Origin: Planctomycetota bacterium
GTDB taxonomy: Bacteria > Planctomycetota > Planctomycetia > Gemmatales > Gemmataceae
Assembly: GCA_016873095.1 (NCBI GenBank)
Contig: VGYC01000039.1
Location: forward strand, 1 to 44,892
Direction of reading: 5' to 3'
DNA: 44,892 bases
Of the stretch, positions 12,661-22,646 are shown piece after piece. The notes beneath the pieces were generated by a model. It was not told the origin of the DNA, searched no databases, and worked only from the letters and a program-made list of their open reading frames with translations. The first letter of the stretch is position 1, and each line of letters opens with the position of its first letter. The position numbers and the translations under genes are program-made.

Positions 12661-13461
12661 ATGGCCTTCGACTACCAGGTAGCGATAGTGACCGGCGCGT
12701 CCAGCGGCATTGGCTGGGCGCTGGCCAAGGAGCTGGCGTCGCGCAAGTGCAAGGTCGGGCTGCTCGCCCGCCGCGGCGACCGGCTGGCGGCGCTGGCGGA
12801 GGAGATTCGTCTTTCCGGCGGAGAGGCCGCCTTCGCCGTCGCCGACGTCAGCAATCGCGCCCAGACGCTGGACGCCATGGCAGCGGTCCGCCGCGAACTG
12901 GGACCGGTTGACCTGCTGATCGCCAACTCCGGCATCGGCACGCACACTCCCTTGAAACCGCTGGACACCGAGCGCGTCGAGTACATGATGCGCGTCAACA
13001 TCTTCGGTGTCATCTATGCCATCGAGGCAGTGTTGCCGGAGATGCTCGAGCGCGGCAAGGGGCATCTGTCCGCCATCTCCAGCCTGGGGTCCTACAAGGG
13101 CTTCCCCGGCGAATCCGGCTACTGCGCCAGCAAGGCCGCCATCAACGTCTATCTCGAAGGCTTGCGCATTCAGCTCCGCAGCAAGGGCATTGCGGTTACC
13201 ACGATCTGCCCCGGCTTCATACGCACCGCCATGACCGAAGCCCATGCCTTTCACATGCCCTGGGCGATGGAAGCGGACAAGGCCGCCCGCAAGATCGTCC
13301 GTGCCCTCAAGAGACGCAAGAAGGTCTACAATTTCCCGTGGCAAACCACCTGGCTGACCAAGTTCACCTGCTGGGTCCCTGACTGGCTGCTGGCCCGGAC
13401 TTTGAATCCATACGTTGTCGAGGGCCCCAAGCCGGAAAAAGGCTCGGCCTTCAAGAAGTGA
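12661..13461 (+). CDS. Short-chain dehydrogenase/reductase (classical SDR)
   Basis: A 266-residue classical SDR, predicted to be an NAD(P)(H)-dependent cytoplasmic oxidoreductase. The cofactor motif TGASSGIG is at residues 11-18, the structural NSG motif (in LLIANSGIG) near 83, the catalytic Ser in AISSLGS near 140, and YCASK (Tyr/Lys) near 155. The post-catalytic PGFIRTAM follows. The C-terminus has an aromatic and basic tail (KKVYNFPWQTTWLTKF) as in DltE/YqjQ-like membrane-associated SDRs. The ATG at 12661 is chosen because the Rossmann strand begins five residues later; upstream in-frame extension is basic and repeat-derived. The substrate is unknown. hemD follows 48 bases downstream, but there is no functional reason to link them. 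Confidence 0.85.
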   Translation: MAFDYQVAIVTGASSGIGWALAKELASRKCKVGLLARRGDRLAALAEEIRLSGGEAAFAVADVSNRAQTLDAMAAVRRELGPVDLLIANSGIGTHTPLKPLDTERVEYMMRVNIFGVIYAIEAVLPEMLERGKGHLSAISSLGSYKGFPGESGYCASKAAINVYLEGLRIQLRSKGIAVTTICPGFIRTAMTEAHAFHMPWAMEADKAARKIVRALKRRKKVYNFPWQTTWLTKFTCWVPDWLLARTLNPYVVEGPKPEKGSAFKK

Positions 13462-13509: not shown

Positions 13510-14322
13510 ATGACCTTGCAAGGTCGAACCATCGCCCTGGCCGAGGGTCGGCAACTCGAAGAGCTGGCGGCGCTCCTGGAAAAGGAAGGCGCGTCGATCT
13601 GGCGCTGTCCCCTCGTCAGCATCCTGGACGCGCCCGATCCCGCTCCCGTGATTGCCTGGCTCCGCGAACTCATCGCCGAACGCTTCGATTACCTGGTGTT
13701 CTTCACTGGCGAAGGTGTGCGCCGGCTGCTTGGCCTCGCCGAACGCGCTGGTCTTCGTGATGACATGGTCGCGGCCCTGGGCAAGACCCGTCTTGTCACG
13801 CGCGGCCCCAAACCGGTTCAGGCGCTGCGTGACATCGGGCTGTCGCCGTCGCTGGTCGCGAGCACGCCCACCACGGCAGGTGTCATCGACTGCCTGCGAA
13901 GCCAGTCGCTGCACGGCGCCACCGTTGGCGTCCAGCTTTATCGTGACAGCAACGAACCATTGCGACGCTTTCTGGTCGACGCCGGCGCCGACGTGCGCGA
14001 AGTGCTGCCTTATGTTTACGCCCCGGCAGCCGACACCGAGCGCGTCGTTGCCCTCATCCACGCGCTGGAAAAAGGCGGCGTGGATGTGCTGGTCTTCACC
14101 AGTTCGCCGCAAGTTGACCGGCTCTTCGAGGTGGCAGACGAGCGGCAGCTACTGCCGTCGCTCACCGCCGGCCTGGGTCGCGTCCAGGTGGCAGCCGTCG
14201 GTCCCGTCGTCGCCGATGCTCTGCGGCAACGTAACGCCCCGCCGCACATCTGCCCCGAGCAAGGCTTCGTCATGAAGAACCTCGTTCAGCTGATAAAGCG
14301 GACATTTGCCACGGGCAAGTAG
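13510..14322 (+). CDS. hemD: Uroporphyrinogen-III synthase
   Basis: A 270-residue protein that fits HemD, which closes and inverts ring D of hydroxymethylbilane to make uroporphyrinogen III in haem and corrin synthesis. Sequence identity in this family is low. The pattern here is the two-domain layout with FDYLVFFTGEGVRRLL near residue 60, the hinge, VLPYVYAPAAD near 165, VDVLVFTSSPQVDRLF near 195 and VAAVGPVVADALRQRN near 230, which correspond to the conserved TSxxxV and GxxTAxAL stretches. A GGGAGC ribosome site (13501 region) precedes the ATG at 13510. It is not beside hemC, which is about 23 kb away on the opposite strand. Confidence 0.85.
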   Translation: MTLQGRTIALAEGRQLEELAALLEKEGASIWRCPLVSILDAPDPAPVIAWLRELIAERFDYLVFFTGEGVRRLLGLAERAGLRDDMVAALGKTRLVTRGPKPVQALRDIGLSPSLVASTPTTAGVIDCLRSQSLHGATVGVQLYRDSNEPLRRFLVDAGADVREVLPYVYAPAADTERVVALIHALEKGGVDVLVFTSSPQVDRLFEVADERQLLPSLTAGLGRVQVAAVGPVVADALRQRNAPPHICPEQGFVMKNLVQLIKRTFATGK

Positions 14323-14647: not shown

Positions 14648-17600
14648 ATGCGAATCCTGTTTGAAACCCTCGTCGAGATGCTCCGCGCCCGGGCGGGAGA
14701 CTCCGTCAACGGCTATTTCCACATGCCGGACGGCCCGGGGCCCGAGGACTTCCTGTCGTTCGCCGACCTGGATCTTCGTGCCCGCGCGCTGGCCTGTCAC
14801 TTTCGCGACCACGGCTTGACCGGACAGCGAGCCCTGCTTTGCTATCCCCCTGGCGTCGAGTTCATGGTGGGCTTTTTCGGCTGCGTCTACGGCGGTGTGA
14901 TCGCCGTGCCCGCCTATCCGCCGCGTGCCCACCGCAGCGATCCGCGTCTGTACAGCATTGCCGAGAACTGCACGCCGGCCATCGCGCTCACCAGTCGCGA
15001 GGTTCATCGCGACCTGGCACGCTATGTCGCCAGGTCGCCGCGACTCGCCGCCTTGAACTGGCTGGACACCACGACGGTTGCCGCCGAATTGGCCGACGGC
15101 TGGCGCGATCCAGGACCGGCGCCGGGTGACCTGGTCGCCTTGCAATACACGTCCGGCTCGACCGGCAACCCCAAAGGCGTGATGCTGAACCACGGTTGCC
15201 TGCTGCACAATCTGGCGCGCATGCGCGAGGTGCTCGGTCTGGCCGAAGCCAGGCATGCTGTTTGCTGGCTGCCGACATTCCACGATATGGGTCTGGTGGG
15301 CAACTACTTGCAAGGCATCCACTGCGGCGTGACGCTCACATGCATGTCGCCGGCCGGCTTCGCCCACGATCCAATCCGCTGGTTGCGGACCATCAGCCAG
15401 AAACGCGCCTTCGTCAGCGGCGGGCCATGCTTCGCCTTCCAGCACTGTGTCAACCGCATGACACCAAAAAAGTGCGAGGGGATCGATCTGAGCTGCTGGA
15501 AGGTCGCCTATGTCGGCGCCGAGCCGGTTTCCGCCACCGTGCTCGAGCGCTTCGTGCGGACATTCGAGCCCTATGGCTACCGCCGCGAGACCTTCTTTCC
15601 CTGCTACGGACTGGCCGAGAGCACGCTGATGGTGACCGGCGGCGACTACCGCGCGGCTCCGATTGTCCGCGGCTTCCGCCAGGACGCCCTCGAGGAGAAC
15701 CGCGCCGAACTCGAAGCGGCCGGCAGGCAGCTGGTCGGCTGCGGACGCGCGCTCGACGACCTGGACGTGTGCATCGTCGATCCCGACACGCGCTTGCCGG
15801 TGAGCGAAGGCCGCATCGGCGAGATCTGGGCGGCCGGACCGAGCGTGGCGAGCGGATACTGGAACCGCGCCGAGGAATCCGCCGAGCTGTTCCGAGCCCG
15901 CCGCGCCGATGGCAGCGCCGCCGGATACCTTCGCACCGGCGACTTTGGCTTCCTGCAGCAGGGCGAACTGTTCGTCAGCGGCCGGCTCAAGGATCTCATC
16001 ATCATCCGTGGCCGAAACTTCCATCCACAGGACCTGGAAAGCGCCGTCGAGGAGGCGATCCCGGAACTGCGCGGCCTGGGAGCCGCTGCCTTTGCAGTCG
16101 ACGCCGATCCGGTCGCCCGGCTGGTCATTGTTCAGGAGGCGCCGCGCGCCTTCAAGGCGGGACAGGGCAACGACCTGTTTCTCAAGGCTCGCCAGGCGGT
16201 CGCCGAGCAATTCGAGCTGGAGCTGAGCACACTGGCGCTCATCAAGTTGGCCAGCATCCCACGTGCATCCAGCGGCAAGGTGCGCCGCAGCGAGACGCAG
16301 CGACGATACCTGGCCGGCGCCCTTGACATCATCGAGAAGATCGACGCTCCCGAACCGGAGGAGCCGGTTTCCCAGCAAGGCCCGACCCTCGTCGGCGCCG
16401 GCTTGGAGGCAGCCATCCGCGACTGGCTGGTGGCCAGACTGTCGAAACGCCTGGGTGTGCCTGCCGAGCAGATTGACCGCGACAAGCCGTTTGCCGCGTA
16501 TTTGCTCGATTCCATCATGATGGTGTCGATGGCGGCGGACCTCGAGCAATGGATCGGCCGGCCGTTGTCGCCAACCTTGCTCTACACCGCTCCGACAATC
16601 GCTTCGCTGGCGCGCAAGCTCGCCGGCGAGACACGCGTCGAGGACAATGGCGAGTTCCAGGGACCCGCTCCGGTGCCGGTTGCCGTCGTCGGCATCGGTT
16701 GCCGCTTTCCCGGCGCCGACCATCCCGACGAGTTCTGGCAGCTGCTTGCCGAGGGCAAGGACGGCGTCGCCGATCTGCCGGCGGGACGCTGGACCCGTAT
16801 CCCGAAGGACCTGGCTACTACCCGCGCCGGCTACCTTGGCAGCGTCGACCGCTTCGACGCGCAATTCTTCGGCATCGCCCCGCGCGAGGCCGTCTTCATC
16901 GATCCACAGCATCGCCTTCTGCTCGAAGTTGCCTGGGAGGCGCTCGAACACGCCGGCCTGGCGCCGGATCGGCTCGCCGGCAAGTCCGTCGGTGCCTTCG
17001 TCGGCATCTCCAACAGCGACTACGGCCGGATACTCACTCAGCACACCGGCTACGCCGACGCTTACCTGGGCACGGGCAACTCGCCGAGCATGGCCGCTCA
17101 TCGCTTGTCGTATCACCTCGATCTGCACGGTCCGAGCATCGCGGTGGATACGGCCTGCTCATCGTCTCTCGTCTCGGTGCACATGGCCTGTCAGAGCATC
17201 CGCAACGGCGAATGCGATCTCGCCCTGGCCGGCGGAGTCAACTTGCTGCTCGCCCCGGAACTGACCGAGGCGCTGTCGCGCGCCGGCATGCTGTCGCCGA
17301 CGGCACGCTGCAAGACCTTCGATGCCGGAGCCGACGGCTATGTGCGCGGCGAAGGTTGCGGGCTCATCGTCCTCAAGCCGTTGTCGGCTGCAATCCGTGA
17401 CGGCGACCAGGTCTTCGCCGTGCTGGAGGCGTCGCTGGTCAACCAGGACGGCCGCAGCAACGGCATCACCGCTCCCAACGGCGGCGTGCAGACCGAACTG
17501 ATCCGTCGCACCTTGCGGCTGGCCCATCGCCGGCCCGACGAAGTTTCCTACATCGAGGCACACGGAACCGGCACGCCGCTCGGCGATCCCATCGAGTTTG

Positions 17601-20600
17601 ACGGCTTGAATGACGCCATCGGCGCCGCCGACCAGCCCTGCACTCTTGCCTCCGTGAAGACGAATCTGGGCCATCTGGAAGCGGCCGCCGGCATTGCCGG
17701 ACTCATCAAGACCATCTTGCAGATTCACCACGCGCACATCGTGCCGCACCTGCATCTCGATGAGCTCAACGCGCGGATCAAGCTTGACGGCAGTCGTTTC
17801 CGCATTCCACGCGACTTGCAGCCCTGGGAAGGCAGCCGGCTGGCCGGCGTCAGCTCCTTTGGCTTCGGCGGCACCAACGCGCATGTGCTGGCCTCGCAGG
17901 CCCCGGCGATGGTTCCGGCCGTGTCGCCGGCCGATGACCGGCCCGTTCATGTCCTCACGCTATCGGCACGATCAGAACCGGCGCTGCGCGAGTCGGCCCT
18001 TCGTTACCTGGATTGGTTCGCACGCCATCCCGATGCGGCGCCGGCGGACGTCTGCGCCACGGCGGCCCGCGGACGCAGCCATTTCACGCAGCGCCTCGCC
18101 GTACGCGGCAGCTCGCTGTCCGAGCTGAGCGACGGCCTGCAACGCTGGCTCGACGGCAAGCGCGATCCCGCCTGGCAAATCGGCACTGCCCGGCCGGACC
18201 TGTCGCGAAACATTGCTTTCCTGTTCACCGGCCAGGGGTCCCAGTACGCCGGCATGGGCAAGCAGCTCTATGAAAGCTGCGCGGCGTTTCGTGAAGAGCT
18301 TGACCGCTGCGACGCCATCCCCCGCGGCCACGGCTTCTTCTCGATCCGCGAAGCTCTGCACAGCGCGGAACGGCTCGACGATACAGATATCGCTCAGCCG
18401 GCACTGTTCGCGCTCGAATACTCGCTGGCGCAGCTGTGGCGGCGCTGGGGCATCGAGCCGGCAGCCGCGCTGGGCCACAGCGTCGGCGAGTATGTTGCCG
18501 CCTGCGTCGCCGGCGTCTTTTCCCTCGAAGACGGACTGCGGCTGATTGCCGAGCGCGGCCAGCTCATGCAGGCATGTCCCGAGGGAACCATGCTCGTCTG
18601 CTTCGCGCCGCTGGCGGAAATCCAGGAACGGCTCGAGCGCTGGCAGGACTTCCTCAGCATCGCAGCGATCAACGGCCCCGAGAGCATCGTGCTGGCGGGC
18701 GACGCCGGTGTCATGGCCGCTTTCCAGGAAGAGCTGGCGGCGTTCAGCATCGAAACCAGGCCATTGCACGTGCGCCGGGCGTTTCACTCGCGGCTGATCG
18801 AGCCGGCGTTGCCGAAGTTGCGCGACATCGCCTCCGGCATCACGCTTCAACCACCGGGGATTCGCCTCATCTCGAACAGGACCGGCGACTTCTTCCAGGC
18901 TGCGCCGGACGCCGGTTACTGGGCCGAACATGCCCGCATGCCGGTGCAGTTTGCCAGGGGCATCCAGACGCTGCATGAGGCCGGCATCACACATTTCCTG
19001 GAGATCGGTCCCGAGGCCGTGCTCAGCCGGCTGGGCCCGACTTGCCTGGCCGGCCAGGACGCGACCTGGCTGCCGTCACTGCGCCGCGGCAAGGACGATT
19101 GGCAGGAGTTGCTTGCCAGTCTCGGCAAGCTCTACGTGGACGGGGCCGCGATCGATTGGGATCGCTTCGACAGCGTGCGCCGGCGCCGCCTGGTGCTGCC
19201 TACCTATCCGTTCCAGCGGCAACGCTACTGGTATGATGACCTGCCGCGCGGCGTCGTCTCCGCCGACGAGATGGTCGCCGCCGCACCGAAGGACGGCTCG
19301 ACAGAGATCACCTGGCAGCCACGTTCCAACTGGAGCGAAGGATTGCCGCGACTGGCCACCGGCTTCGACAAGCTTCCGGGTGGACTCGAAGCTGTCGCGG
19401 CGCCCATTGTCGCCAAGGTGAAGAACGCGCACGACATCGGCATGTTCGGCGATTTGCGCGTGGAATTCGATCGCCTCGCCGGCGGCTACGTCGCCAACAC
19501 GCTCAAGCAACTTGGCTGGCGGCCCGGCGCGGACGAGCGCGTCGAGCTGGAGCCACTCGCCGAGCGCTGCAAGGTCCAGCCCGCATATCGCCGGCTGCTG
19601 GGTCGGCTGCTGGAGATCGCCGCCGAGGACGGCTGGCTTACCGCCGCGTTGCACAGGGAGGGCGAGGCTCCCGCCGAGCCGCACAGCTGGCATGTCGTGC
19701 GGCCGCCGGCCGCGGTGGACATCCAGGCGTGGCACGAGGATCTGACGAGCCGCCGCGCCGATTTCGCGGTCGAGCTCAAGCTGGCCCATCGCTGCGCCAC
19801 GCTGATGCACGCCGTGATGCGCGGCGAGCAGGACCCGCTCCAGGTCTTGTTCGGCGAAGGGGCGGGACAGCTCACCGAGCAGCTGTATGAGAAATCGCCG
19901 CTGTCGCGCTTCTTCAACGAGTTGCTGGCGGAATGCGTCGCCAGCGTGCTGGTGCCGCTGGCCAGGCAGCGGCCGATACGCATCCTCGAAGTCGGCGCCG
20001 GCACGGGCGGGACCACGACCTACTTGCTGCCGCGCCTGCCGGCGGAGCGCACCGAGTACGTTTTCACGGACCTGTCGCAACTTTTCCTGGCGCGCGCCCG
20101 GGACAAGTTCCGCGCCTATCCGTTCGTCGAATATCGATTGTTCGACGCCGAGAAGGACCCGGCCGGCCAGGGCTTCGCCGACGGTCAGTTCGACATGGTC
20201 ATGGGCGCCAATGTTCTCCACGCCACGGGCGACCTGCGTCTCAGCCTGCGGAACATCCGCCGGCTGCTGGCTCCCGCCGGTTTGCTGGTAATGCTCGAGG
20301 GCACCGGCCGGCGTCGTCTGCTCGACATGATCTTCGGCCTCACCGACGGGTGGTGGAAGTTCCAGGACGCCGATCTGCGCCAGGGCTGCCCGCTGCTGTC
20401 CCCCGCGAGCTGGACCAGGCTGCTCGTCCAGGAGAAGTTCCCCGAGGTTGCCATCGTCCCGGCGCCTGACGATGTCATGCCGGACCCGGATCAGGCGGTA
20501 GTACTGGCACGTGCCGGCGAACCGGTGCGGCAGGATTCCGAATCGGCCCGATCCCGCGCGTGGGCGGTCAACGGCGTCGCCACCAAGAACGCCAGCACGA

Positions 20601-21541
20601 CTCCCCAGACCTGGCTGGCCATCGCCGACCATTCCGAACTCGCCGACCACGTGGCAAAGCGGCTTGCGGCGGAAGGTGCGAGCGTCGTCCACGTTCATCA
20701 CGGTGAAATGCTTGCCTGGGAGGGACAGGAACGCTGCTGGATTCGTCCCGGCGAGCAAGAGGACATCGACGCGCTGCTGGCTGAAGTCCGGAAGCGCAGC
20801 CAGCAGGCCATCCACGTCATCGATTTCAGCGAAGCAGGCACGCGGACCTGGCCCGGCGTCGAACGCCACTGGCTGGTGACGCGCGGCGCGGCGCCGCTCG
20901 GCGAGGCGCAGGCGAACTTGACCTGGCAAGCATGGCTCGACGACAAGCTGGATGCGACGATGCGCCTGGTGGACGTCGATCCAGACGCGACCGTGGACGC
21001 GCAAGCCGATTCCTTGCTGGGAACGCTGCTGCATCCCGACGATGAGCCGGCGCTGGCGTACCGGGGCGATCAGCGCTACGTGCCGCGGCGGCCGACTCCG
21101 ACCGGGCCGGCGGCAGCCGGCGACCGGGTCGCAGCCATCGATCGACAGGCACTGCTGGCGGCGTCGCCTTTCGATCGTCGGGCCATGGTCGAGGGTTATC
21201 TGCGCCGCGAGTTCGCCAACGTCCTCGGTCTCGAACTGGCCGCCGAGGATCTCGACAAGCCGTTGCAGGCCTTCGGGCTGGATTCGCTCATGGGCATTCA
21301 GTTCCGCAATCGGGTCGAGGCCGGTCTGGGCGTGTCGTTGTCCATCGTCGATTTCTTGAAGGGACTGAGCCTGGGTCAAATCGTCGAAAACTCGCTCAAG
21401 GAACTGGCGGCCTCCGCCGAGGCACAGGCGGCCAGGCCCAGGAAGGAGCTTGTCGTCCCCGGCAATTTCACACCCGACAAGGTCACCAACCTCTCGGAAG
21501 GCGAACTCGACAACCTGTTGCAATCGCTCATGGATTCCTAA
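14648..21541 (+). CDS. FAAL-ACP-KS-AT-cMT-psiKR-ACP polyketide synthase
   Basis: A 2297-residue type I PKS. Residues 1-~570 are a fatty acyl-AMP ligase (YTSGSTGNPKG near 167), which activates a fatty acid and loads it on the first ACP (Ser622 in LLDSIMM). The ketosynthase runs about 678-1085, with Cys837 in DTACSSSL and the His motifs EAHGTGT and TNLGHLEAA. The acyltransferase is about 1190-1500, with Ser1278 in GHSVGEY and RAFHS, which favours malonyl-CoA. A C-methyltransferase (EVGAGTGG near 1780) follows. Then comes a shortened ketoreductase structural half (WLVTRGA; LRG-like RYVPRR near 2145) with no catalytic KR half. The last ACP has Ser2213 in GLDSLMG. There is no DH, ER or thioesterase. 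The final residues NLSEGELDNLLQSLM look like a short docking helix. The ATG at 14648 fits FAAL N-termini; a TTG at 14561 is the alternative. The expected product is a chain-extended, alpha-methylated beta-keto fatty acyl unit on ACP (inference). Confidence 0.9.
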   Translation: MRILFETLVEMLRARAGDSVNGYFHMPDGPGPEDFLSFADLDLRARALACHFRDHGLTGQRALLCYPPGVEFMVGFFGCVYGGVIAVPAYPPRAHRSDPRLYSIAENCTPAIALTSREVHRDLARYVARSPRLAALNWLDTTTVAAELADGWRDPGPAPGDLVALQYTSGSTGNPKGVMLNHGCLLHNLARMREVLGLAEARHAVCWLPTFHDMGLVGNYLQGIHCGVTLTCMSPAGFAHDPIRWLRTISQKRAFVSGGPCFAFQHCVNRMTPKKCEGIDLSCWKVAYVGAEPVSATVLERFVRTFEPYGYRRETFFPCYGLAESTLMVTGGDYRAAPIVRGFRQDALEENRAELEAAGRQLVGCGRALDDLDVCIVDPDTRLPVSEGRIGEIWAAGPSVASGYWNRAEESAELFRARRADGSAAGYLRTGDFGFLQQGELFVSGRLKDLIIIRGRNFHPQDLESAVEEAIPELRGLGAAAFAVDADPVARLVIVQEAPRAFKAGQGNDLFLKARQAVAEQFELELSTLALIKLASIPRASSGKVRRSETQRRYLAGALDIIEKIDAPEPEEPVSQQGPTLVGAGLEAAIRDWLVARLSKRLGVPAEQIDRDKPFAAYLLDSIMMVSMAADLEQWIGRPLSPTLLYTAPTIASLARKLAGETRVEDNGEFQGPAPVPVAVVGIGCRFPGADHPDEFWQLLAEGKDGVADLPAGRWTRIPKDLATTRAGYLGSVDRFDAQFFGIAPREAVFIDPQHRLLLEVAWEALEHAGLAPDRLAGKSVGAFVGISNSDYGRILTQHTGYADAYLGTGNSPSMAAHRLSYHLDLHGPSIAVDTACSSSLVSVHMACQSIRNGECDLALAGGVNLLLAPELTEALSRAGMLSPTARCKTFDAGADGYVRGEGCGLIVLKPLSAAIRDGDQVFAVLEASLVNQDGRSNGITAPNGGVQTELIRRTLRLAHRRPDEVSYIEAHGTGTPLGDPIEFDGLNDAIGAADQPCTLASVKTNLGHLEAAAGIAGLIKTILQIHHAHIVPHLHLDELNARIKLDGSRFRIPRDLQPWEGSRLAGVSSFGFGGTNAHVLASQAPAMVPAVSPADDRPVHVLTLSARSEPALRESALRYLDWFARHPDAAPADVCATAARGRSHFTQRLAVRGSSLSELSDGLQRWLDGKRDPAWQIGTARPDLSRNIAFLFTGQGSQYAGMGKQLYESCAAFREELDRCDAIPRGHGFFSIREALHSAERLDDTDIAQPALFALEYSLAQLWRRWGIEPAAALGHSVGEYVAACVAGVFSLEDGLRLIAERGQLMQACPEGTMLVCFAPLAEIQERLERWQDFLSIAAINGPESIVLAGDAGVMAAFQEELAAFSIETRPLHVRRAFHSRLIEPALPKLRDIASGITLQPPGIRLISNRTGDFFQAAPDAGYWAEHARMPVQFARGIQTLHEAGITHFLEIGPEAVLSRLGPTCLAGQDATWLPSLRRGKDDWQELLASLGKLYVDGAAIDWDRFDSVRRRRLVLPTYPFQRQRYWYDDLPRGVVSADEMVAAAPKDGSTEITWQPRSNWSEGLPRLATGFDKLPGGLEAVAAPIVAKVKNAHDIGMFGDLRVEFDRLAGGYVANTLKQLGWRPGADERVELEPLAERCKVQPAYRRLLGRLLEIAAEDGWLTAALHREGEAPAEPHSWHVVRPPAAVDIQAWHEDLTSRRADFAVELKLAHRCATLMHAVMRGEQDPLQVLFGEGAGQLTEQLYEKSPLSRFFNELLAECVASVLVPLARQRPIRILEVGAGTGGTTTYLLPRLPAERTEYVFTDLSQLFLARARDKFRAYPFVEYRLFDAEKDPAGQGFADGQFDMVMGANVLHATGDLRLSLRNIRRLLAPAGLLVMLEGTGRRRLLDMIFGLTDGWWKFQDADLRQGCPLLSPASWTRLLVQEKFPEVAIVPAPDDVMPDPDQAVVLARAGEPVRQDSESARSRAWAVNGVATKNASTTPQTWLAIADHSELADHVAKRLAAEGASVVHVHHGEMLAWEGQERCWIRPGEQEDIDALLAEVRKRSQQAIHVIDFSEAGTRTWPGVERHWLVTRGAAPLGEAQANLTWQAWLDDKLDATMRLVDVDPDATVDAQADSLLGTLLHPDDEPALAYRGDQRYVPRRPTPTGPAAAGDRVAAIDRQALLAASPFDRRAMVEGYLRREFANVLGLELAAEDLDKPLQAFGLDSLMGIQFRNRVEAGLGVSLSIVDFLKGLSLGQIVENSLKELAASAEAQAARPRKELVVPGNFTPDKVTNLSEGELDNLLQSLMDS
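19657..19681 (+). repeat. Dispersed EGEAPAEP repeat inside the PKS reading frame
   Basis: The stretch reading GGGCGAGGCTCCCGCCGAGC and its flanks is one substitution away from the arm of the palindrome at 7964-7990 read on the minus strand. In the PKS frame it encodes REGEAPAEP (about residues 1670-1678) in the linker before the methyltransferase motif. Confidence 0.75.
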
Positions 21542-21632
21542 AAAGGGCAAGGCGAGCCGGGAGCGAGGGCGACCGGAGGATCTGGCAGCGGACGAGTCCG
21601 CTTACGTCAAGGCCAAGGAACGGGGAACTGAC

Positions 21633-22646
21633 ATGGCCCGTGTGCTGGTGACCGGGGCGACCGGCTTCATCGGCCGCAATCTGGTCGAGCGGCTGGTCAA
21701 GGGTGGCGATCAGGTCGTCTGCCTGCTCCATCGTCGCGGCGCGGAGAACTTCTTCGCTCCGCTGCAGGTCGAATATGTTCGCGGTGATTTGCTGACGCCC
21801 GGCTCGCTCGATCCGGTCCTCCCCGGCGTGGACATTGTCTATCACCTGGCCGGCGCCACGCTCGTGCTGTCTGCCAAGGAATTCGCGCGCGGCAATACCG
21901 AGGCCACCAGGTTGCTGGCCGAAGCCTGCGCCCGCCAGGAGCGCCCGCCCCGGGTCGTCTTCGTGTCGTCCCTGGCCGCCGCCGGGGTTGCGCCTGCAGA
22001 TCGACCGCTCACCGAAGAGTCACCGGCGGCCCCCGTTTCGGAGTATGGCCGCAGCAAGCTTGCCGCCGAGCAGCATCTGCGCGCCGTCGCCGATCGGGTG
22101 CCCATCACCATCGTGCGCCCCCCCATCGTGTTTGGCCCATGGGACCCCCTCACCGTCATTCTCTTCAAGATTGTTCGACTGGGCATCAACTTCAATGCCG
22201 GCTTGAAGGACTATCGCCTGGCGTGGATTCATGTCGCGGACCTGGTCGAGGGACTTGTCAAGGCAGCCCGAAACGGCGAGCATCTGCCGCCTGATACCAG
22301 GACCGCGCCGCCGGGTCGCGGCATCTACTTCATGGCCATGGACGAGATGCGCTCCTTGCGCGAGGCCAGCGAGCTGACAGCCCGCGCCTTGAAGCGCAAG
22401 ATGCTGGCCTTCATCTACTTCCCAGCGTTTCTGTGCCGCTTCCTTGCCAAGGTAAACGACCGGATAGCGCAGCGCATCAGCCGTCCGAGTCTCATGGTCC
22501 CCGACAAGATCGCCGAAGGCCTGGCCGGCTCGTGGATGTGCAGTTCCGACAAGGCCAAACGCGAGCTGGGCTTCTCTTGCCACTTCCAACTCGAGGCGGG
22601 CCTGCGCATGCTGGCCCAGTGGTACCGCAAGCACGGCTGGATGTGA
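21633..22646 (+). CDS. NAD-dependent epimerase/dehydratase family protein (extended SDR)
   Basis: A 337-residue extended SDR. TGATGFIG at residues 7-14 binds the dinucleotide, VYHLAGAT follows at about 69-76, VSSLAAAG near 112 supplies the Ser region, and EYGRSKLAAEQ near 135-145 supplies the Tyr/Lys pair. Its overall look is that of the 3-beta-hydroxysteroid dehydrogenase or dihydroflavonol reductase type rather than a nucleotide-sugar epimerase. The ATG at 21633 lies 91 bases after the PKS stop, in the same direction and with no obvious terminator between, so it may be co-transcribed. A ketone reductase acting on the PKS product is attractive because the PKS lacks a working KR, but this is inference. 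Confidence 0.82.
   Translation: MARVLVTGATGFIGRNLVERLVKGGDQVVCLLHRRGAENFFAPLQVEYVRGDLLTPGSLDPVLPGVDIVYHLAGATLVLSAKEFARGNTEATRLLAEACARQERPPRVVFVSSLAAAGVAPADRPLTEESPAAPVSEYGRSKLAAEQHLRAVADRVPITIVRPPIVFGPWDPLTVILFKIVRLGINFNAGLKDYRLAWIHVADLVEGLVKAARNGEHLPPDTRTAPPGRGIYFMAMDEMRSLREASELTARALKRKMLAFIYFPAFLCRFLAKVNDRIAQRISRPSLMVPDKIAEGLAGSWMCSSDKAKRELGFSCHFQLEAGLRMLAQWYRKHGWM

Follow-up and report, generated by a model that had tools for sequence, protein, structure and literature searches.

The window, that is, the whole stretch of 44,892 nucleotides that was analysed, is an entire contig (C39) of the planctomycete assembly G000 (8.36 Mb, 548 contigs), of which C66 and C68 are further contigs. It encodes a single-module type I polyketide synthase (PKS) and, close behind it, an extended short-chain dehydrogenase/reductase (SDR). 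The question raised by this locus is what becomes of a fatty acid that is loaded, extended and methylated by a module with no evident means of reducing or releasing it. The sequence-only reading treated the locus as an orphan, in which the SDR could reduce the chain in trans and release was left to a thioesterase, an acceptor or a partner module contacted through the C-terminal helix of the PKS. The last of these release options appears to be the right one, and the label of orphan does not hold: very probably, the PKS passes an alpha-methyl-beta-ketoacyl chain to a nonribosomal peptide synthetase (NRPS) of the type encoded on C66. The explanation towards which we lean, taking all parts together, is a dispersed lipid (lipo-aminoacyl) pathway that joins a fatty acyl-AMP ligase (FAAL), a PKS and an NRPS, with the PKS responsible for loading and the first extension.

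The PKS (14648..21541, on the plus strand, as are all features of the window given below; 2297 aa, ATG at 14648, stop ending at 21541) has the architecture FAAL, acyl carrier protein (ACP), ketosynthase (KS), acyltransferase (AT), C-methyltransferase (cMT), structural remnant of a ketoreductase (KR), ACP and C-terminal helix. Its Pfam domains, reported for window proteins at E ≤ 0.01, score far above chance level. The first domain is a predicted FAAL (14750..16327, aa 35-560) that matches AMP-binding over residues 35-405 (1.8e-55) and contains YTSGSTG; FAAL models are the top stand-alone AMP-ligase matches of the PKS in NCBIfam, yet they remain under their own cut-offs. ACP1 follows (16421..16615, aa 592-656, with its serine in LLDS), then the KS (16676..17758, aa 677-1037; ketoacyl-synt, 1.9e-90), with the Cys-His-His motifs DTACSSS, EAHGTGT and KTNLGHLE, and the AT (18218..19147, aa 1191-1500; Acyl_transf_1, 3.1e-56), with GHSVGEY and RAFHS, which we take to mark a malonyl-type enzyme. 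The cMT (19409..20512, aa ~1588-1955; Methyltransf_12, 9.6e-19; 5thy, 2.8e-105) bears GAGTGGTT, NVLHAT and LEG, and is nearest to the CurJ C-MT among solved structures by PDB sequence search and Foldseek. ACP2 (21209..21415, aa 2188-2256, with its serine in GLDS) is the second of two PP-binding matches (6.3e-25). The meaning given to each of these motifs is the one usual in its family. Thus, an AMP ligase of FAAL type, within the NCBIfam reservation above, is followed by ACP, KS, AT and ACP, and the FAAL-loaded single module with AT and cMT was correctly recognised from the letters, as was the expected alpha-methyl branch. The curacin module of CurJ has a cMT of the same kind, whereas loading and partner differ here and there is no full KR.

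The KR region that separates the cMT from ACP2 is reduced to its structural half (20603..21097, approximately residues 1986-2150). No KR, dehydratase, enoyl reductase or thioesterase family was found in the PKS by Pfam at E ≤ 0.01, and neither GxGxxG nor YxxxN is left in residues 1930-2190, where the cofactor and active-site motifs of a catalytic KR were looked for. This bears out the earlier claim that active KR, dehydratase and thioesterase domains are missing, and no complete KR emerged. The two ends of the remnant (PxxWLxxAD... and ...DLDP...AYRGDQRYVPR) match the structural subdomain of the KR from a complete PKS of G000 in the expected order, though weakly (i-Evalues 0.94 and 0.0026). 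A PDB sequence search with this region gave nothing useful, and the remnant is unsupported by the AlphaFold model of the region from the cMT to the end, which has a mean pLDDT of 57.8 and from which the Foldseek result was taken for the cMT only. Because the KR keeps only its structural half, the beta-keto group would remain on the chain carried by ACP2.

The partner of the module was recognised through its relatives. Comparisons were made with 59 genomes (including G000) in a first search with the full-length PKS, with a family set of 95 genomes and with a phylum sample of 392; genes outside the window were called with our own codon-usage script rather than a published gene finder, by which some genes were missed or shortened. 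The first search gave matches in every genome, owing to the wide occurrence of KS and AMP-ligase domains, and the only full-length relatives besides the PKS itself are those of G010 (51% over residues 4-2296) and G027 (53% over 7-1957 and 49% over 2105-2296). A scan of contigs with the PKS alignment, based on two short peptide patterns and not exhaustive, also returned only these two. A query made of the region from the cMT to the end has matches at E ≤ 1e-30 in 5 of the 95 family genomes; these reach the C-terminus in G000, G010 and G027 but lie around the cMT only in G464 and G022. In the phylum sample, 10 of the 392 genomes match at E ≤ 1e-20, and the whole query is covered only by G000.

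In G027, the PKS is followed in the same direction, after 57 bases, by a protein of 1763 aa with condensation (C), adenylation (A) and peptidyl carrier protein (PCP) domains and two KASIII-like domains (C-A-PCP-KASIII-KASIII), and then by a luciferase-like monooxygenase; slightly beyond the latter, past an S49 peptidase gene, lies a stand-alone FAAL-ACP. An ortholog of the NRPS, of 1780 aa, is encoded on C66 of the window's own genome (6734-12076, minus strand); its alignment with the counterparts in G027 (52.6% identity) and G010 (51.1%) covers the whole length. Beside it is a MupA-type luciferase-like monooxygenase (C66, 5451-6626, minus strand) with 58% identity to that of G027, both scoring above the cut-off of TIGR04020. 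C66 is improbable as contamination from another genome, since its tetranucleotide usage correlates with that of C39 at r 0.97, compared with 0.70-0.87 for five stretches taken from four other genomes.

In G010, the PKS closes a contig of 8.8 kb (the end of C804), which stops 38 bases past the PKS stop codon, and the NRPS opens one of 5.5 kb (the start of C208). The final 28 bases of the PKS contig recur, reverse-complemented, as bases 73-100 of the NRPS contig, in which bases 1-14 pair with bases 59-72, so that inverted-repeat arms stand at both contig ends. A hairpin repeat plausibly bridges the two contigs and, if the genes are neighbours there too, would explain the break in the assembly; G010 probably has the same PKS-NRPS order as G027. 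The NRPS is thus linked to the PKS by adjacency in G027, probably also in G010, and in trans in G000.

The NRPS with a KASIII pair occurs in 3 of the 95 family genomes, which are the same three that carry the PKS; for two random triples to coincide, the calculated chance is 7e-6. In a GyrA tree, a single marker covering 50 of the 95 genomes (the 30 best-scoring loci and 20 picked by hand), G027 and G010 are sisters (100/99) and G000 lies in a separate clade amid genomes lacking the PKS, so that the distribution of the PKS needs at least two changes. Judged from this tree, shared ancestry would explain the presence of the PKS in G027 and G010, but not in G000. The handover from PKS to NRPS is considered very probable because the gene order is the same in relatives, an orthologous pair is present on C66, and the two genes have an identical distribution that is not confined to one GyrA clade. 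In addition, the two proteins have ends that look like helical docking ends. The PKS tail (21455..21538), a possible docking helix that is helical in the low-confidence model, reads LSEGELDNLLQSL and the NRPS head reads LSVEDKRELLKNLL; both are conserved in G000, G010 and G027, with LSExxLDxLL kept in the former and L(S/P)VxxKRELLxxLL in the latter. Docking domains as such are a subject of review literature.

Several observations weigh against this account. PKS and NRPS lie mid-contig on two different contigs in G000, so there is no single operon there, and the monooxygenase is beyond reach in G010, where the NRPS contig ends. The chance figure of 7e-6 for coinciding triples ignores the kinship of G027 and G010. 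The tail motif is also found on the stand-alone FAAL-ACP of G027 and is not exclusive to the PKS-NRPS pair. Finally, C68 offers a second candidate partner, a paralogous C-A-PCP NRPS and a separate KASIII pair of 660 aa (plus strand, L086 12022-15114 and 15387-17369) whose KASIII part is 49% identical. That this pair is the true partner instead of the C66 protein seems very unlikely: it is C66 that encodes the fused protein orthologous to those of G027 and G010, with the same N-terminal helix and with the monooxygenase, whereas the C68 NRPS has no docking-like N-terminus by eye. Moreover, the C68 genes are divergent from a complete PKS-NRPS of 3537 aa that could use them, with the domains KS-AT-dehydratase-enoyl reductase-KR-ACP-C-A-thioesterase (C68, L086 902-11515, minus strand), and by their gene content they appear to be a second, paralogous system of G000.

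With the C66 protein as the preferred partner, the domains, motifs, orthology, co-distribution and gene order seen in the sequences lead us to infer the following course of docking, reactions, release and product. The FAAL would activate a fatty acid and load it onto ACP1, the KS and AT would add one malonate unit, and the cMT would methylate the alpha carbon to leave an alpha-methyl-beta-ketoacyl chain on ACP2. The C-terminal helix of the PKS would then dock to the NRPS supplied in trans from C66, which would couple the chain to one amino acid; this amino acid may differ between G000 and G027, since the A-domain codes of the two NRPS proteins, read from motifs with conventional residue numbering, differ. 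The KASIII-like pair would probably remove the chain from the PCP, and the MupA-type monooxygenase encoded beside the NRPS may tailor the product. As a possible further step, the SDR next to the PKS would reduce the beta-keto group in trans; were it to act first, the NRPS would receive the reduced chain.

The assignment of release to the KASIII pair rests on the C-terminus of the NRPS, which consists of two KASIII-like domains rather than a terminal thioesterase or reductase. The first domain retains Cys-His-Asn and the second is without the Cys. Because no thioesterase was found in either the PKS or the NRPS protein, release by the pair is the most economical reading, and on balance we favour it. 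Weak PDB matches include PqsC and a PQS biosynthetic enzyme, and AlphaFold of the G027 pair alone gave no usable model (pLDDT 37). PqsBC is likewise a pairing of an active KASIII-like partner with an inactive one; in the present case, the two domains are joined to one another and to an NRPS module within a single protein. Possible reactions are an intramolecular condensation, ester formation or a condensation with a second acyl chain, the last being raised by the FAAL-ACP nearby in G027. In the phylum sample, the pair is found in 2 of the 392 genomes, G000 and, in a distant split version, G244. In that distant planctomycete, the split pair (C317, L090 54-5064) is accompanied by an extended SDR and by two genes resembling, by eye, ArsA-type ATPases.

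The nearest known systems are lipopeptide starters of the puwainaphycin and the iturin/mycosubtilin type, in which a FAAL loads a fatty acid onto an ACP, a PKS extends it, the alpha carbon is methylated, and a flavin monooxygenase and an NRPS follow (PMC4219810). FAAL loading, PKS extension, alpha-C-methylation, a monooxygenase and an NRPS are common to both. The present system differs in that FAAL, ACP, KS, AT, cMT and ACP are in one protein, an aminotransferase domain was not seen in this PKS, the sole NRPS module ends in a KASIII pair and not in a thioesterase, and PKS and NRPS lie on separate contigs in G000. Pks13 of the mycolate pathway is also a FAAL-loaded PKS (FadD32), and its associated reductase, Rv2509, presumably belongs to a family that differs from that of the window SDR. 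The PKS scores 727.2 bits against the curated Pks13 model, below the cut-off of 2100 that would assign it to the mycolate system. Its branch would be made by a methyltransferase rather than by acyl condensation, and there is no thioesterase. What the two share is an alpha-branched beta-keto lipid and a separate reductase that acts on it (PMC2568869), for which the window SDR is a candidate.

The SDR (21633..22646; 337 aa, ATG at 21633, stop ending at 22646) begins 91 bp downstream of the PKS, carries TGATGFIG and YGRSK and belongs to the extended, NAD(P)-dependent epimerase/dehydratase family. Its description as 3-beta-HSD type stands as a resemblance within the superfamily (3Beta_HSD, 66 bits), but the best Pfam match is Epimerase (118 bits). 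An identity as the hopanoid-associated epimerase HpnA is not supported, at 117.5 bits against the TIGR03466 cut-off of 367.65. In keeping with the sequence-only reading, PKS and SDR could form a self-contained two-gene locus: the SDR would act in trans on the beta-ketone, and a thioesterase or spontaneous release would then free the acid as a 3-hydroxy-2-methyl fatty acid. Such a locus would suit the common strand and the lack of any terminator-like site in the 91-bp gap, the restriction of SDR orthologs in the family to PKS carriers (2 of 95), and the precedent of trans reduction of an alpha-branched beta-keto lipid in the FadD32-Pks13-reductase route (PMC2568869). It nevertheless appears unlikely, given a partner NRPS of matching gene order and distribution and an SDR that does not adjoin the PKS in G027 and is absent from G010.

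Alternatively, the SDR might have no part in the pathway, being a housekeeping or sphingolipid-type (CerR-like) reductase that stands beside the PKS by chance, so that the beta-ketone would reach the NRPS unreduced. Orthologs at E ≤ 1e-30 occur in 102 of the 392 phylum genomes, commonly in ones lacking the PKS, and the nearest clade of the window SDR contains SDRs without PKS linkage. The surroundings of the SDR were viewed at 19 loci (16 from the phylum search and 3 from the relatives search), in 17 of which it was called; the script left it uncalled in L123 and L133 and clipped its start in L071 and L073. The PKS stands beside it at none of the ortholog loci viewed. In 5 of the 17 called loci, genes resembling serine palmitoyltransferase (SPT) and GNAT adjoin, and at one locus a bioF-like gene was seen. 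The likeness to CerR-type ceramide reductases, whose pathway and setting are described elsewhere (PMC11087976; PMC11334938), is one of gene setting only, namely that orthologs in other planctomycetes can adjoin SPT-like genes. G000 itself has three alpha-oxoamine synthase matches, one Kbl above its cut-off and two bioF-best below theirs; none of them is SPT-best, which counts against an identity of the SDR as a CerR ceramide reductase.

Separately, a fusion of FAAL, ACP and alpha-oxoamine synthase, identified by profile, was seen in G052 (L075 7337-10945, minus strand; a class of ~1100-1200 aa), and long open frames in G047, G325 and G408 suggest the same fusion, judged by frame length only. 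Proteins of this kind could supply an SPT/BioF-like enzyme with an ACP-bound fatty acyl group and so bypass CoA. In G047, an alpha-oxoamine synthase match (C10, 764919-766028) lies within an open frame of 2583 aa, the same frame length as that of the PKS match just upstream.

Within the family, the picture for the SDR is different from that in the phylum. Some SDR match (E ≤ 1e-18) is present in 34 of the 95 genomes; beyond 1e-30 there are only G000 and G027 (3e-82; the next is 6.6e-28), so that orthologs occur in two of the three PKS carriers and in none of the other 92 genomes. The two SDRs are sisters in the SDR tree (100/97), and their carriers belong to separate GyrA clades. In G027, the SDR adjoins gene X, which is common to the PKS carriers (~260-340 aa; L088 12736-13602, L071 11239-12030, L174 450-1460). 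Close homologs of gene X (E < 1e-60) are confined to G000, G010 and G027, the next match being at 1e-31; no confident family match was obtained where profiles were run, and the N-terminus in G010 resembles a lipoprotein signal by eye. Gene X is divergent from the SDR in G027 and from the C66 NRPS in G000. The pairs PKS-SDR, SDR-X, X-NRPS and NRPS-PKS across rearranged genomes, as read from gene order, speak for a functional link.

Against a dedicated enzyme speak the wide occurrence of the SDR elsewhere, its absence from G010, a genome that is 84% complete, and its location in G027 on a contig other than that of the PKS, by which adjacency to the PKS is not conserved in the relatives. The proposed reduction in trans was upheld only in part, by the family occurrence and gene X. 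Orthologs stand beside unrelated genes in PKS-lacking relatives, the observation named beforehand as adverse to an SDR role, at the level of the phylum, where it does count against that role, but not within the family. Gene X and the family-wide search keep the link plausible despite the orthologs across the phylum, and the SDR probably belongs to the pathway. That it is the beta-ketoreductase is a candidate function about which we are nearly evenly divided, inclining slightly to doubt. A chance neighbour is a less probable explanation, to be taken seriously nonetheless.

A classical SDR encoded upstream (12661..13461) is a weaker candidate for the trans ketoreductase. It is on the same strand, 1.2 kb upstream of the PKS, with an adh_short match and a weaker KR-domain match; a uroporphyrinogen-III synthase (HemD) gene (13510-14322) intervenes directly upstream of the PKS, and by eye no lookalike is among the genes listed around the G027 PKS, the surroundings considered. 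We regard this role as improbable.

In conclusion, the system most likely belongs with the known FAAL-PKS-NRPS lipopeptide starters as a variant that ends, unusually, in KASIII-like domains, and it may include a trans reductase as the mycolate pathway does. More tentatively, the fused active/inactive KASIII-like pair might be a release device in which formation of a C-C bond frees an N-(alpha-methyl-beta-ketoacyl)aminoacyl chain from the PCP, and FAAL-PKS, NRPS-KASIII-KASIII, monooxygenase and SDR might together yield lipo-amino-acid ketones or rings that would form a new planctomycete class. A literature search found no paper on a fusion of an NRPS with a KASIII-like pair; subscription journals were mostly uncovered, which makes this weak evidence that the architecture is unpublished. 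For fragmented genomes such as this one, a seemingly orphan module can be paired with a partner encoded elsewhere through the gene order of relatives and joint distribution. The partner identified here indicates a rare release architecture, an NRPS with a KASIII-like pair, which may be a new release route for such molecules.

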